NCBI RefSeq assembly: GCF_037040815.1
Contig: NZ_CP146232.1
Coordinates: forward strand, 5,401,727-5,465,726
From: Pararoseomonas sp. SCSIO 73927
GTDB taxonomy: Bacteria; Pseudomonadota; Alphaproteobacteria; Acetobacterales; Acetobacteraceae
DNA length: 64,000 bases
Direction of reading: 5' to 3'
A program made the position numbers and the translations under genes. The notes under the pieces are model-generated. The model was not told the origin of the DNA and did not search any database. It saw only the letters and a list, made by a program, of their open reading frames with translations. Positions 6,068-13,254 of this stretch are shown here, piece by piece (the first letter of the stretch is position 1; the number at the start of each line of letters is the position of its first letter).

Positions 6068-6526
6068 TCAGCCCCCCAGCGCCGCCTTCACCATCGGCCC
6101 GGCCTTGGCCATGTCCAGCACCGCGGCGTGCTTCGCCTTCAGCGCCGCCATCACCTTGCCCATCTCCTTGATCGAAGCCGCGCCGGTCTCGGCCACGGCC
6201 TCCTTCACGGCGGCCTCCATGGCGGCCTCGTCCATCTGCTGGGGCAGGAAGGACTCGATCACCGCGATTTCCGCCTCCTCCTTCTCCGCCAGCTCCGGGC
6301 GGTTGCCCTGCCGGTACATCTCCACGCTCTCCCGCCGGCTCTTCACCATGCCGCGGAGCATGGAGGTGATCGCCTCGTCCCCAATCTGGTCCACCCCGCT
6401 GGGACGGGAGGCGATGTCCGCGTCCTTCAGCTTGGCGGTGATCATCCGGATGGCGGAGGTGCGGGCCGCGTCGCCGGCGCGCATGGAAGCCTTCAATTCT
6501 TCGGTGAAGCGGGCGCGCAGGCTCAT
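6068..6526 (-). CDS. GatB/YqeY domain protein
   Basis: 152 residues from an ATG preceded by CAGGAGAACCCGCA. The sequence is the standalone YqeY fold related to the tail domain of the GatB amidotransferase subunit (LRARFTEELKASMRAGD, IESFLPQQMDEA, GKVMAALKAKHA). It is likely to bind tRNA or an aminoacylated RNA, but its role is not established in the family. It heads the yqeY-dnaG-rpoD unit and diverges from carA, sharing the intergenic space with the two palindromes at 6593-6652. Confidence 0.9.
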   Translation of the reverse strand: MSLRARFTEELKASMRAGDAARTSAIRMITAKLKDADIASRPSGVDQIGDEAITSMLRGMVKSRRESVEMYRQGNRPELAEKEEAEIAVIESFLPQQMDEAAMEAAVKEAVAETGAASIKEMGKVMAALKAKHAAVLDMAKAGPMVKAALGG

Positions 6527-6592: not shown

Positions 6593-6609
6593 TGGGAAGA
6601 GACTTCCCA
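6593..6609. promoter_or_regulatory. Palindromic operator candidate 1
   Basis: TGGGAA-N5-TTCCCA, 17 bp, in the divergent yqeY-carA spacer. The same half-sites and spacing recur 43 bp downstream, about four helical turns, so a regulator would meet both on one face of the DNA. It is a plausible site for the HTH module encoded just downstream. Confidence 0.65.
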
Positions 6610-6635
6610 GGCCGCCAGGCGGGCCGCTCTTCCAT

Positions 6636-6652
6636 TGGGAAAAAATTTCCCA
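6636..6652. promoter_or_regulatory. Palindromic operator candidate 2
   Basis: TGGGAA-N5-TTCCCA again, here with an A/T core (TGGGAAAAAATTTCCCA). It ends 12 bases before the ATG of the HTH-CarA frame. A CATAAG at 6653-6658 could be a -10 element with this palindrome as its exact 17-bp spacer, which would place transcription start near the ATG; the matching -35 (TTCCAT) is poor, so that reading is tentative. Confidence 0.65.
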
Positions 6653-6664
6653 CATAAGGGTGGC

Positions 6665-8062
6665 ATGCGGACGGTCGAGCAGATTCTCACCCTCATGGGG
6701 GGCGCCAGCGCCGCGGCGGCGCATTGCGGCGTGGGCACAGAGGCGATCCGGAAGTGGCGCCAGGCCCGCGCCATCCCGCCGCGCCACTGGACGGCGGTGC
6801 TGGCCGCCACCGGCCTCTCTCTTGCAGATCTTCCCCGCGCCGAAACCAACCCCGCCCCGGAGCCCGAGATGAGCCCTGCCGCCACCCCTGCCCCGGACGC
6901 CAACGCCGACACCGTGCCCGAGGGGGCGACGGCCTGCCTCGTGCTGGGAAACGGCAAGGTGATCTGGGGCCACGGCTTCGGGGCCGCCGGCAAGAAGGTC
7001 GGCGAGGTCTGCTTCAACACGGGCATGACCGGCTACCAGGAGACGCTGACCGATCCCTCTTACGCCGGGCAGATCATCACCTTCACCTTCCCCCATATCG
7101 GCAATGTCGGCGCCAACGCCGAGGACACGGAGGCGACCACCGCCGCCGCGCTCGGGCTGGTGGTGAAGGCGGACATCACGGAGCCCTCCAACTACCGCGC
7201 CACGCGGGACCTGGATGACTGGCTGAAGAGCAACGGCCTGCCCGGCATCTCCGGCGTGGACACCCGGGCGCTCACCACCCTCATCCGCGAAGCCGGCGCG
7301 CCGAACGGCGTGATCTGCCACGCCCCGGACGGGGTCTTCGACCTGCCTGCGCTGCGGGCGGAGGCAGCGGGCTGGCCGGGGCTGGAGGGGATGGACCTGG
7401 CGAAGCAGGTCTCCTGCACCCAGTCCTACCGCTGGGATGGCGGGCTCTGGGCCTGGGGCCAGGGCTACGCGAAGGAGACGGCGCCGAAGCACAAGGTCGT
7501 GGCGGTGGATTACGGCGCCAAGCGCAACATCCTGCGCTGCCTGGCCGATGCGGGCTGCGACGTGACGGTGGTGCCCGCCACCGCGACGGCGGAGGAAATC
7601 CTGCGCCACGGGCCGGACGGCGTGTTCCTCTCCAACGGCCCCGGAGACCCGGCGGCGACGGGCGAGTACGCGGTGCCGGCGATCCGGGGCGTGCTGGACG
7701 CAGGCAAGCCGGTCTTCGGCATCTGCCTGGGCCACCAGCTCCTCGCCCTTGCGCTGGGCGCGAAGACCTACAAGCTGGACCGCGGCCACCGGGGCGCGAA
7801 CCAGCCGGTTAAGGACCTCGCGACTGGGAAGGTGGAGATCACCAGCCAGAACCACGGCTTCGCGGTGGACGACAAGTCGCTGCCCGAGGGCGTGAAGGTC
7901 ACGCATGTCAGCCTCTTCGACGGGTCCAACGAGGGCATTTCCTGCGAGGGGCGCAACGCCTTCTCCGTGCAGTATCATCCGGAGGCCTCGCCGGGGCCGA
8001 GCGACAGCCACCACCTGTTCCACCGCTTCACCGACATGATCGACCGGGTGAAGGCGGGCTGA
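6665..8062 (+). CDS. carA: Carbamoyl-phosphate synthase small subunit with N-terminal HTH module
   Basis: Glutamine amidotransferase subunit that feeds ammonia to CarB for arginine and pyrimidine synthesis. From the ATG at 6665 (AAGGG upstream) the frame encodes 465 residues. Residues 1-58 look like a small Cro/YdaS-type helix-turn-helix (ILTLMGGASAAAAHCGVG, then AIRKWRQARAIPPRHW). A Pro/Ala-rich linker follows, then a full-length CarA from about residue 87. The class I amidotransferase triad is intact: Cys354 in GICLGHQ, His438 and Glu440 in QYHPEAS. An internal ATG at 6869 with GGAG upstream could start a plain CarA, so one frame may give two products. No stop codon separates the two parts. 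CarA identity is secure; the fusion needs protein evidence. Confidence 0.93.
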   Translation: MRTVEQILTLMGGASAAAAHCGVGTEAIRKWRQARAIPPRHWTAVLAATGLSLADLPRAETNPAPEPEMSPAATPAPDANADTVPEGATACLVLGNGKVIWGHGFGAAGKKVGEVCFNTGMTGYQETLTDPSYAGQIITFTFPHIGNVGANAEDTEATTAAALGLVVKADITEPSNYRATRDLDDWLKSNGLPGISGVDTRALTTLIREAGAPNGVICHAPDGVFDLPALRAEAAGWPGLEGMDLAKQVSCTQSYRWDGGLWAWGQGYAKETAPKHKVVAVDYGAKRNILRCLADAGCDVTVVPATATAEEILRHGPDGVFLSNGPGDPAATGEYAVPAIRGVLDAGKPVFGICLGHQLLALALGAKTYKLDRGHRGANQPVKDLATGKVEITSQNHGFAVDDKSLPEGVKVTHVSLFDGSNEGISCEGRNAFSVQYHPEASPGPSDSHHLFHRFTDMIDRVKAG

Positions 8063-8063
8063 C

Positions 8064-8696
8064 TTGCCGTCCCTCGCCTCCCTCCTCGCCTTCGCGGCGC
8101 TCTCGGTCGGCCTGGCGATCACGCCGGGGCCGAACCTGTTCTACCTGGTGTCGCGCACGCTGACCCAGGGAACACGGGCGGGGATGCTGTCGCTGATCGG
8201 GTGCCAGACCGGCAGCCTCGTCATCATGCTCGGCGCGGCGCTGGGCGTGACGGCGGCGTTGCTGGCCGTGCCCTATGCCTACGACGCCATGCGGCTGGGC
8301 GGCGCGGCCTATCTCGGCTGGCTGGCCTGGGGGAGCCTGCGGCCGGGCGGGCAGGCACTGTTCTCCCCGCGGCCCATCCCGGCGGAGAGCGGGCGGCGCC
8401 TCTTCATCCTCGGTTTCGCGACGGCGGCGCTGAACCCGAAGGTGGCGCTGTTCTACGTCGCCGTGCTGCCGGCCTTCATGGACCCGGCGCGGGGCAGCCT
8501 CTTCACCCAGGGCCTCGTGCTCGGCGCGGTGCAGATCGCCATCTGCACGGTGTTCGACGCGCTTCTGGTGGGCGGTGCCGGCGGCGTGGCGCGGTTCCTC
8601 TCCACCCGCCCGGCCTGGCTGGCCGTGCAGCGCTGGGTGCTGGGCGGGGCGCTGGCCCTGCTGGCCGTGAAGCTGGCGACGGATCGACGCGCATGA
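8064..8696 (+). CDS. LysE family amino-acid exporter
   Basis: 210 residues from a TTG two bases after the carA stop; no better start is visible. About six hydrophobic segments are present. The N-terminal GLAITPGPNLFYLVSRT box and the later FATAALNPKVALFYVAVLP segment are hallmarks of the LysE/RhtB exporter family in the inner membrane. The substrate is unknown. Being wedged between carA and carB, an arginine- or pyrimidine-linked export role is conceivable but only inference. The end overlaps the next gene by ATGA. Confidence 0.85.
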   Translation: MPSLASLLAFAALSVGLAITPGPNLFYLVSRTLTQGTRAGMLSLIGCQTGSLVIMLGAALGVTAALLAVPYAYDAMRLGGAAYLGWLAWGSLRPGGQALFSPRPIPAESGRRLFILGFATAALNPKVALFYVAVLPAFMDPARGSLFTQGLVLGAVQIAICTVFDALLVGGAGGVARFLSTRPAWLAVQRWVLGGALALLAVKLATDRRA

Positions 8697-8941
8697 TCCG
8701 CCTGCTGGTCCTCGCCCTCCCCCTCTCCCTGCTGGCCTGGTGGACGCTGACCCGCGTGGGCCAGCCGCGCGACAGGGCGTGGCTGGGCGGGATTGCGATC
8801 TCCTTCGTGGCGCTCGGCGGGATCGTGTTCTTCGCCGACGACGACCGGCAAGGGGGCCGCGCCCTGGCCGCCGCCCTCTGGGCCGGGGTTCACGCGGTGC
8901 TGTTCCTGATCGGCAGGCCGTTCCTGGGGAGGGCGCGATGA
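8693..8941 (+). CDS. Small membrane protein, function unknown
   Basis: 82 residues. The start overlaps the exporter stop codon by four bases (ATGA) and the end overlaps the next start the same way, which argues for a real, translationally coupled gene. Hydrophobic segments are [30 protein letters not shown] and a third near the C-terminus ([15 protein letters not shown]), with a DDDRQ turn between the last two. I do not recognise the family. Confidence 0.7.
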
Positions 8942-9324
8942 CGCCGCAGCTGCTCGCCGGCGCCGTCGCCATGATCGGCGTGCTGGCGCTGATCCTGAAC
9001 CTGACGATCGTGCAGGCGATCTATCTCTTCGCCTTCTCCTACCTGCTCTTCGCGGCCGCCGCGGCGGCCACGACGCTGCTCTTCCGCTGGGCCATCAAGC
9101 TCTTCCTCACCCCGGCCCTGCGCGTCGCCGCGGCCCTGACCGGTTCGCTCGCCCTGCACGGCTGGGCCTGGTGGGACGGGTGGCACCCGCTCGCCGAACT
9201 CGCGCCCTCATCGGACCCGGCCGCCGTGGCCGGCGCCCTGCTCATCGCCCATGCGCCGGTGGCGGTCCTGCTGCTGCGCGACCTGCCCGGCGCGGCCCCG
9301 CCCGCCGCCCCGACCTCTCGCTGA
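8938..9324 (+). CDS. Membrane protein, function unknown
   Basis: 128 residues beginning in an ATGA overlap with the previous gene. At least three or four hydrophobic stretches are visible ([54 protein letters not shown]), with a short Pro/Ala tail. The stop lies 11 bases before carB. With the preceding two genes it forms a three-gene membrane block inside carAB. No family recognised. Confidence 0.65.
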
Positions 9325-9335
9325 ACGAGACGCCC

Positions 9336-12584
<3,249 letters not shown>

Positions 12585-12783: not shown

Positions 12784-13254
12784 ATGCAGAAGTTCCCGAT
12801 GACCGCCGAGGGCCTCGCCCGTCTCGAGGACGAGCTGCGCGTCCTGCGCGCCGAGGAGCGTCCGGCCGTGATCCGCGCCATCGCCGAGGCCCGCGCCCAT
12901 GGCGACCTCTCGGAGAACGCCGAGTACCACGCGGCGCGCGAGAAGCAGTCCTTCATCGAGGGCCGTATCGCCGACCTGGAAGGGGTGATCCCCTCCGTCG
13001 AGGTGATCGACGTCTCCAAGATGTCCGGCGACCAGGTGCGCTTCGGCGCCCGCGTCACGATCGTCGACGAGGAGACGGAGGACGAGAAGACCTACCGCAT
13101 CGTCGGCGCCTACGAGGCGGACATGAAGAACGGGTCGATCTCCATCTCCTCGCCCCTCGCCAAGGCCCTGCTCGGGCGCAAGGTGGGGGACAGCGTCGAG
13201 GTCCCGGCGCCGGGCGGGGCCCGCTCCGTCGAGATCACCAAGGTCGCCTTCTGA
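12784..13254 (+). CDS. greA: Transcription elongation factor GreA
   Basis: Rescues backtracked RNA polymerase by stimulating transcript cleavage. 156 residues from the ATG at 12784, which follows CCGGGGGAAA; an in-frame GTG at 12754 is less likely. The N-terminal coiled coil carries the functional tip ARAHGDLSENAEYHAAREKQ with the acidic Asp and Glu, and the C-terminal FKBP-like domain ends in SVEITKVAF. Length is normal. It starts about 140 bases after the carB hairpin and is followed closely by the dehydratase gene. Confidence 0.97.
   Translation: MQKFPMTAEGLARLEDELRVLRAEERPAVIRAIAEARAHGDLSENAEYHAAREKQSFIEGRIADLEGVIPSVEVIDVSKMSGDQVRFGARVTIVDEETEDEKTYRIVGAYEADMKNGSISISSPLAKALLGRKVGDSVEVPAPGGARSVEITKVAF

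Follow-up and report, generated by a model that had tools for sequence, protein, structure and literature searches.

Introduction

BirA, the biotin protein ligase of Escherichia coli, has an N-terminal helix-turn-helix (HTH), and the proline dehydrogenase PutA binds DNA through a ribbon-helix-helix. Both represent a known kind of protein, an enzyme that doubles as the repressor of the operon for its own pathway, with PutA acting as the direct repressor of the put operon, as set out in the relevant passages of PMC6978683. For the E. coli carAB operon, sections of PMC6245113 describe how the trigger enzyme PepA represses promoter P1 and how ArgR binds paired palindromes that overlap the -35 element of P2. 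Here we describe a locus in a stretch of 64,000 nucleotides from Pararoseomonas sp. SCSIO 73927 (family Acetobacteraceae; hereafter the window), in which an HTH domain and CarA, the small subunit of carbamoyl-phosphate synthase, are encoded in a single reading frame behind two palindromes. PepA and ArgR are separate proteins, whereas here the DNA-binding part would sit on CarA itself, and comparison across the family makes it very probable that the HTH binds these palindromes, so that HTH-CarA would repress its own promoter as an autoregulatory enzyme subunit.

Arginine and pyrimidine synthesis branch from carbamoyl phosphate, and CarA acts at the start of both. HTH-CarA differs from BirA in its enzyme and in its type of HTH; furthermore, the putative HTH-CarA repressor is encoded by the gene that it would control, and a second product lacking the HTH is predicted. 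PutA is catabolic, whereas HTH-CarA is biosynthetic. In most of one bacterial family the regulator appears to be part of the enzyme, and the operator part of the promoter spacer; most species would also have a likely route to the same subunit without the regulator. Among the matches listed in a search of the open-license literature, none deals with an HTH-bearing CarA, its spacer operator or its likely second product. The system is small, conserved and open to testing in acetic acid bacteria.

An HTH domain and an intact CarA share one reading frame

The open frame in the window comprises 465 codons and a stop (Table 1). The NCBIfam model NF046037 'carph-isopro' matches residues 4-56, with 63.3 bits for the N-terminal 68-residue piece and 58.6 bits for the whole chain against a cut-off of 38, and the CarA model TIGR01368 matches residues 90-460 with 451 bits, above its curated cut-off of 307.35, which places this part in the CarA family. 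An alignment of 36 sequences shows no variation at Cys354, His438 and Glu440, and a carB partner is present downstream. Frame, models and alignment agree with the first-pass annotation of the locus, which had described an HTH, a linker and a complete CarA with an intact Cys-His-Glu set in one frame; a predicted DNA-binding domain and an apparently intact enzyme on one chain are the make-up expected of an autoregulatory (trigger) enzyme.

The domain itself has already been modeled by NCBI, and the name 'carph-isopro' suggests that the curators knew it from CarA. In sequence and fold the HTH resembles YdaS and prophage Cro proteins, which are stand-alone; for the 68-residue piece the Pfam scores fall below the gathering cut-offs for both YdaS_toxin (22.0 versus 30 bits) and P22_Cro (19.6 versus 30.2 bits). 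YdaS binds operators that overlap promoters, according to the portion of PMC8630535 that treats it. The AlphaFold2 model of the HTH has a mean predicted local distance difference test (pLDDT) score of 93, with helices at residues 4-10, 14-21, 25-34 and 39-49. The HTH codons are under purifying selection, the ratio of non-synonymous to synonymous differences (pN/pS) ranging from 0.00 to 0.50 with a median of 0.09 in 19 chosen pairs of relatives, a few of which share one member.

The fusion is a family trait

Judged by sequence, the HTH-CarA fusion is a trait of the family. A scan of 150 family genomes from 96 genera gave a CarA match in 148; three cut matches (G063, G100 and G104) were left out, and the 145 loci used (30 returned by the scan and 115 fetched) include the window's own. 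The HTH is present in 142 of these. Comparison of carA N-termini, which the first-pass annotation had proposed, found no stop between HTH and CarA in 141 of the 142; the separate small HTH gene lacking its own stop, offered there as an alternative, is not supported by these frames, which run on into CarA. The sole out-of-frame case (L194) breaks after a C5G6 run in the linker, where no start codon was seen in the CarA frame, and is likely a sequencing error. Another locus, L153, has a stop codon inside CarA rather than in the linker. The catalytic motif was recovered by our first pattern in 141 of the 145 loci; L254 and L255 carry GICMGHQ instead, leaving L153, with its stop, and L256, on a cut contig.

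In a sample drawn by order (150 genomes, all from this family and overlapping the first sample), G066 and G190 lack the HTH, which the other 148 carry. Outside the family, no HTH was found among the 117 CarA-bearing members of 150 alphaproteobacterial genomes, and no CarA match there starts before model position 18; one that spans model positions 18-455 (G335) holds three stops, and an HTH search of its upstream region gave no match. Named records with the fusion come from Pararoseomonas, Belnapia, Acetobacter, Komagataeibacter, Gluconobacter, Acidocella and Commensalibacter (59 of 80 loci in one set, which leaves out L081, cut at a contig end). Residues 1-75 searched against about 5.8 billion proteins gave 138 matches, and wherever a name accompanies one of the 120 listed it reads carbamoyl-phosphate synthase small subunit, a label that masks the HTH.

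We also looked for the domain on its own. Six short database matches were rejected as stand-alone HTH proteins: P0122 and P0126 continue into CarA, P0123 to P0125 hold linker-like sequence, after which P0124 leaves the CarA frame, and P0127, on a contig of 567 bases, enters unrelated sequence. Descent of the domain from an independent HTH gene next to carA was likewise rejected, 29 HTH queries against 33 HTH-less loci giving one marginal match only (L094, E 0.010, positions 2834-2899). In L203, L212 and L237 the linker has been lengthened as a short unit, which ends in APEG or APAG and resembles the first residues of CarA, was repeated in tandem.

The palindromes are kept and lost with the HTH

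Both copies of TGGGAA-N5-TTCCCA upstream of the frame are exact and lie 43 bp apart, as first described, and a search of the whole 5,592,142-base genome for further copies, also suggested at that stage, returned these two only (one for the reversed-pattern control). With one mismatch allowed there are four genomic sites; since the control also gives four, the two extra sites look like background. Across this genome and 35 further family genomes there are 51 exact sites, of which 48 coincide with carA when positions are compared by hand. The remaining three (G005:C87:125189, G012:C1:351106 and G028:C45:127126) represent either chance or a further target. Beyond the family, 24 genomes yielded three exact sites, each in a different genome and none of them at a carA located here.

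Within 300 bp upstream, a palindrome with at most two mismatches occurs in 132 of the 145 family loci and the reversed control in none. The 13 loci without it are the truncated L203, the HTH-less L254 and L255, and ten whose outer bases differ (CCGGAA...TTCCGG, for example). Of the 142 HTH loci, 137 have an exact GGAA-N5-TTCC core and all have it with at most one mismatch. The palindromes are thus conserved and the relatives lack a stop between the two parts, so two of the refuting observations named in the first-pass annotation did not materialize; the exact core occurs in 0 of 142 coding stretches and in 8 of 2840 mononucleotide shuffles. At least two core sites with no more than one mismatch are present in 129 of the 142, although some may be chance. 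The earlier proposal of four helical turns between the sites does not hold as a rule: among the 78 loci with exactly two exact-core sites, a spacing of 36-40 bp is the commonest (54 loci), with 41-44 bp in 14 and other values (33-82 bp) in 10.

The exact core and the full pattern (at most two mismatches) are absent from the 231-350 bp upstream of all 33 HTH-less loci. These comprise three losses (L254, L255 and L267) and 30 loci taken as an outgroup, 20 of which come from the 80-locus set with family not checked; L093 is titled Asaia bogorensis and has a Reyranella-like CarA start. In a CarA tree (FastTree), L254/L255 and L267 fall at separate places in the leaf order, each amid HTH-bearing loci, and the HTH and operator were apparently lost together twice, independently. 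The genomes of all three hold no exact TGGGAA-N5-TTCCCA anywhere. The complete co-occurrence of HTH and operator in the loci examined, the two co-losses and the location of the sites within the predicted promoter make the HTH on CarA the likely binder of the palindromes and controller of carA, and lend strong comparative support to what had been a suggestion from a single locus.

A separate trans-acting regulator that binds the palindromes, with the HTH on CarA serving otherwise, for example in docking to DNA or to a partner, is an unlikely explanation. Binding by the HTH is itself a prediction, and the passages of PMC6245113 on E. coli list several separate proteins that control carAB, namely ArgR, PepA, RutR, PurR and IHF. 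Such a regulator would, however, be dedicated to one target while its sites track the codons of a different protein's HTH (142 of 142 loci with it, 0 of 33 without), and the outer bases of the operator shift where HTH residue 33 is Ser.

The proximal operator fills the predicted promoter spacer

In 91 of the 142 loci the proximal operator forms the 17-bp spacer between the predicted -35 and -10 elements. The -35 carries TTG in 80 of these 91. The -10 adjoins the operator, and 5-12 nt separate it from the ATG (6-7 nt in 83), which has no Shine-Dalgarno sequence (median +0.4 kcal/mol). In 50 loci the ATG is more than 20 nt from the -10 position and has a Shine-Dalgarno sequence (median -5.7 kcal/mol), and in one locus the distance is 19 nt. 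Loci were placed by their last exact-core site, and 91 is probably too low because loci with a nearer imperfect site (for example L163, L188 and L230) fell into the long-leader group. In the 50 long-leader loci faint sequence hints suggest that the operator may overlap the -35. The first ATG in the window has weak Shine-Dalgarno pairing (-3.5 kcal/mol), and a leaderless carA message starting at or near 6665 is predicted. For Gluconobacter oxydans, a 'ttGnnn' -35 and an 'aGGAg' ribosome site have been described, together with leaderless messages that nearly always start with ATG (PMC5756330); these features fit the predicted layout, and the main text of that paper does not name carA itself.

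As RNA, each palindrome could fold into a 6-bp stem with a 5-nt loop and act in leader attenuation rather than as a DNA operator. We regard this as highly improbable, as O2 lies upstream of the predicted transcription start in 91 loci, the inner positions keep their purine or pyrimidine type without complementarity (73% versus 28%), and the commonest variant, CG in the left half and TG in the right, breaks the outer pair (31 of 215 sites).

An internal start would give a second, HTH-less product

Linkers were analyzed in 137 of the 142 HTH loci, leaving out L194 for its frameshift and L198, L239, L245 and L251, whose CarA border was not recognized. An ATG is present in 91, only GTG or TTG in 22, and none of the three in 24. 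The 100 linker ATG codons have a median Shine-Dalgarno pairing of -5.8 kcal/mol, compared with -2.3 kcal/mol for the first ATG, and G stands at -10 before the linker ATG in 85%. Pairing of -4 kcal/mol or stronger is seen at 71% of the linker ATGs; among 2990 other linker codons and 171 ATGs inside CarA the shares are 21% and 15%. When the seven codons ahead of the ATG (the best-pairing one where a linker has several) are recoded synonymously at random, the mean weakens from -5.54 to -3.86 kcal/mol (91 loci; Wilcoxon p 3e-11, the species not being independent). Single loci are weak evidence, with 11 of 91 in the best tenth of their own recodings and 58 in the better half, and the 18 GTG cases show no excess over recoding (-4.04 versus -4.03 kcal/mol). 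The internal start falls where CarA starts in L267 and other HTH-less loci. An in-frame internal start with a Shine-Dalgarno sequence is thus conserved, though not universal; it makes a second, HTH-less CarA likely in most species, and no such product is expected in the 24 loci whose linkers lack ATG, GTG and TTG.

The better pairing of the linker ATG and its coincidence with the CarA start of HTH-less loci would also be expected if the internal start alone were used, the HTH frame being a separate small gene or an untranslated relic. This is very unlikely given the purifying selection on the HTH codons, the uninterrupted frames and the 24 linkers without a start codon; moreover, 141 of the 142 loci have an in-frame ATG no more than nine codons from HTH residue 4, and a leaderless ATG requires no Shine-Dalgarno sequence. 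The start at 6869 put forward in the first-pass annotation would give one of two likely products, and does not exclude the fusion.

A proposed model for autoregulation by HTH-CarA

We propose that CarA, through Cro-like HTH modules acting in pairs, binds its own promoter at one or two of the 17-bp palindromes. Since the proximal operator fills the gap between -35 and -10, bound HTH-CarA would shut out RNA polymerase, and we infer from this that carA, and probably carB behind it, is repressed. The internal start would yield HTH-less CarA beside HTH-CarA in most species, so that the amounts of repressor and catalytic subunit need not match. A fuller version, which we consider evenly poised between right and wrong, has one gene giving two proteins: HTH-CarA, from a leaderless or separately led start, as a repressor-enzyme, and the internal-start CarA as the catalytic form, with HTH-CarA binding the operator in its own spacer when it is free of CarB or when the CarB that holds it is inhibited by UMP. 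If so, the cell would gauge carbamoyl-phosphate synthase directly, without a separate carAB regulator. Occupancy of CarA by CarB as the signal that changes binding is our guess; UMP or ornithine acting through CarB are other candidates.

Several observations weigh against autorepression by HTH-CarA. The fold match of the HTH is middling (best Foldseek E 0.016), the -35 in the window departs from the TTG consensus, and only 10 of the 50 long-leader loci have at least four TATAAT matches at the best offset (17 nt on). Many of the 33 HTH-less loci are closely related, so that they amount to fewer than 33 independent tests. The residue-33 rule has exceptions, as the Gln33 loci L171, L189 and L215 have mostly non-G operators, and His33 was rejected as a second marker of the CCGGAA operator, being found with TGGGAA in L049 and without it in L185. 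Finally, CGGAA-N5-TTCCG, the inner part of the Acidocella-type site, has 3-10 copies in five Ser33 genomes (controls 5-21); as CCGGAA-type sites are not unique in their genomes, genome-wide uniqueness supports the TGGGAA type only.

Neighboring genes and further copies of the domain

The first-pass annotation had raised possible control of the divergent yqeY-dnaG-rpoD unit. As a conserved operator target yqeY is not supported: operators persist in 10 of 140 loci where a divergent yqeY was not found, and L254 and L255 keep the divergent yqeY yet lack both HTH and operators.

Table 1. Features of the carA region, in coordinates of the window.
Feature	Position	Strand	Basis
yqeY, divergent neighbor, judged outside the circuit	6068-6526	-	PF09424
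Operator O1 (distal), TGGGAAGAGACTTCCCA	6593-6609	.	Exact match
Predicted -35, TTCCAT	6630-6635	+	Inference from alignment
Operator O2 (proximal), TGGGAAAAAATTTCCCA, occupies the 17-bp spacer of the predicted promoter	6636-6652	.	Exact match; promoter alignment
Predicted -10, CATAAG, 6 nt before the ATG	6653-6658	+	Inference from alignment
HTH-carA, full-length 465-aa product	6665-8062	+	Open frame; NCBIfam/Pfam matches; in-frame relatives
HTH domain, residues 1-56; likely recognition helix residues 25-34	6665-6832	+	NF046037, AlphaFold2, pN/pS
Variable Pro/Ala/Glu linker, residues 57-89 (about)	6833-6931	+	pLDDT <50 at residues 59-77; linker table
Internal Shine-Dalgarno GGAG in linker	6859-6862	+	Sequence; -5.8 kcal/mol
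Internal ATG, candidate start of HTH-less CarA	6869-6871	+	Sits where CarA starts in HTH-less loci
CarA (glutaminase) part, Cys354/His438/Glu440	6932-8059	+	TIGR01368, Pfam, alignment
carB, large subunit with MGS domain	9336-12584	+	Pfam
greA, after carB	12784-13254	Same as carB	Pfam

Together with carA, carB is a possible target, through presumed co-transcription. Between the two genes in the window (8064-9335) lie a gene for a LysE-type exporter (PF01810) and two short frames that match nothing in Pfam, and greA may share a transcription unit with carB. In L217, L222, L223 and L229 a carB-like start lies within a few bases of the carA stop; a CarA-CarB fusion, suggested by open frames of about 1550-1790 aa, was rejected as a TGA closes carA in these four checked loci.

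Further copies of the HTH domain occur in frames of roughly 100 codons away from carA in some genomes of the genus (G014:C23:76324-76482, G014:C45:25080-25232 and G005:C46:24328-24477). Outside the family, NF046037 also matches the N-terminal part of long proteins (L285, L287, L294 and L300, near position 1500; tblastn), in which a transmembrane segment and coiled-coil-like stretches were recognized by eye, L300 running off its contig. A DNA-binding-like module on a membrane-type protein is an odd pairing; the preceding gene resembles that of uroporphyrinogen-III synthase.
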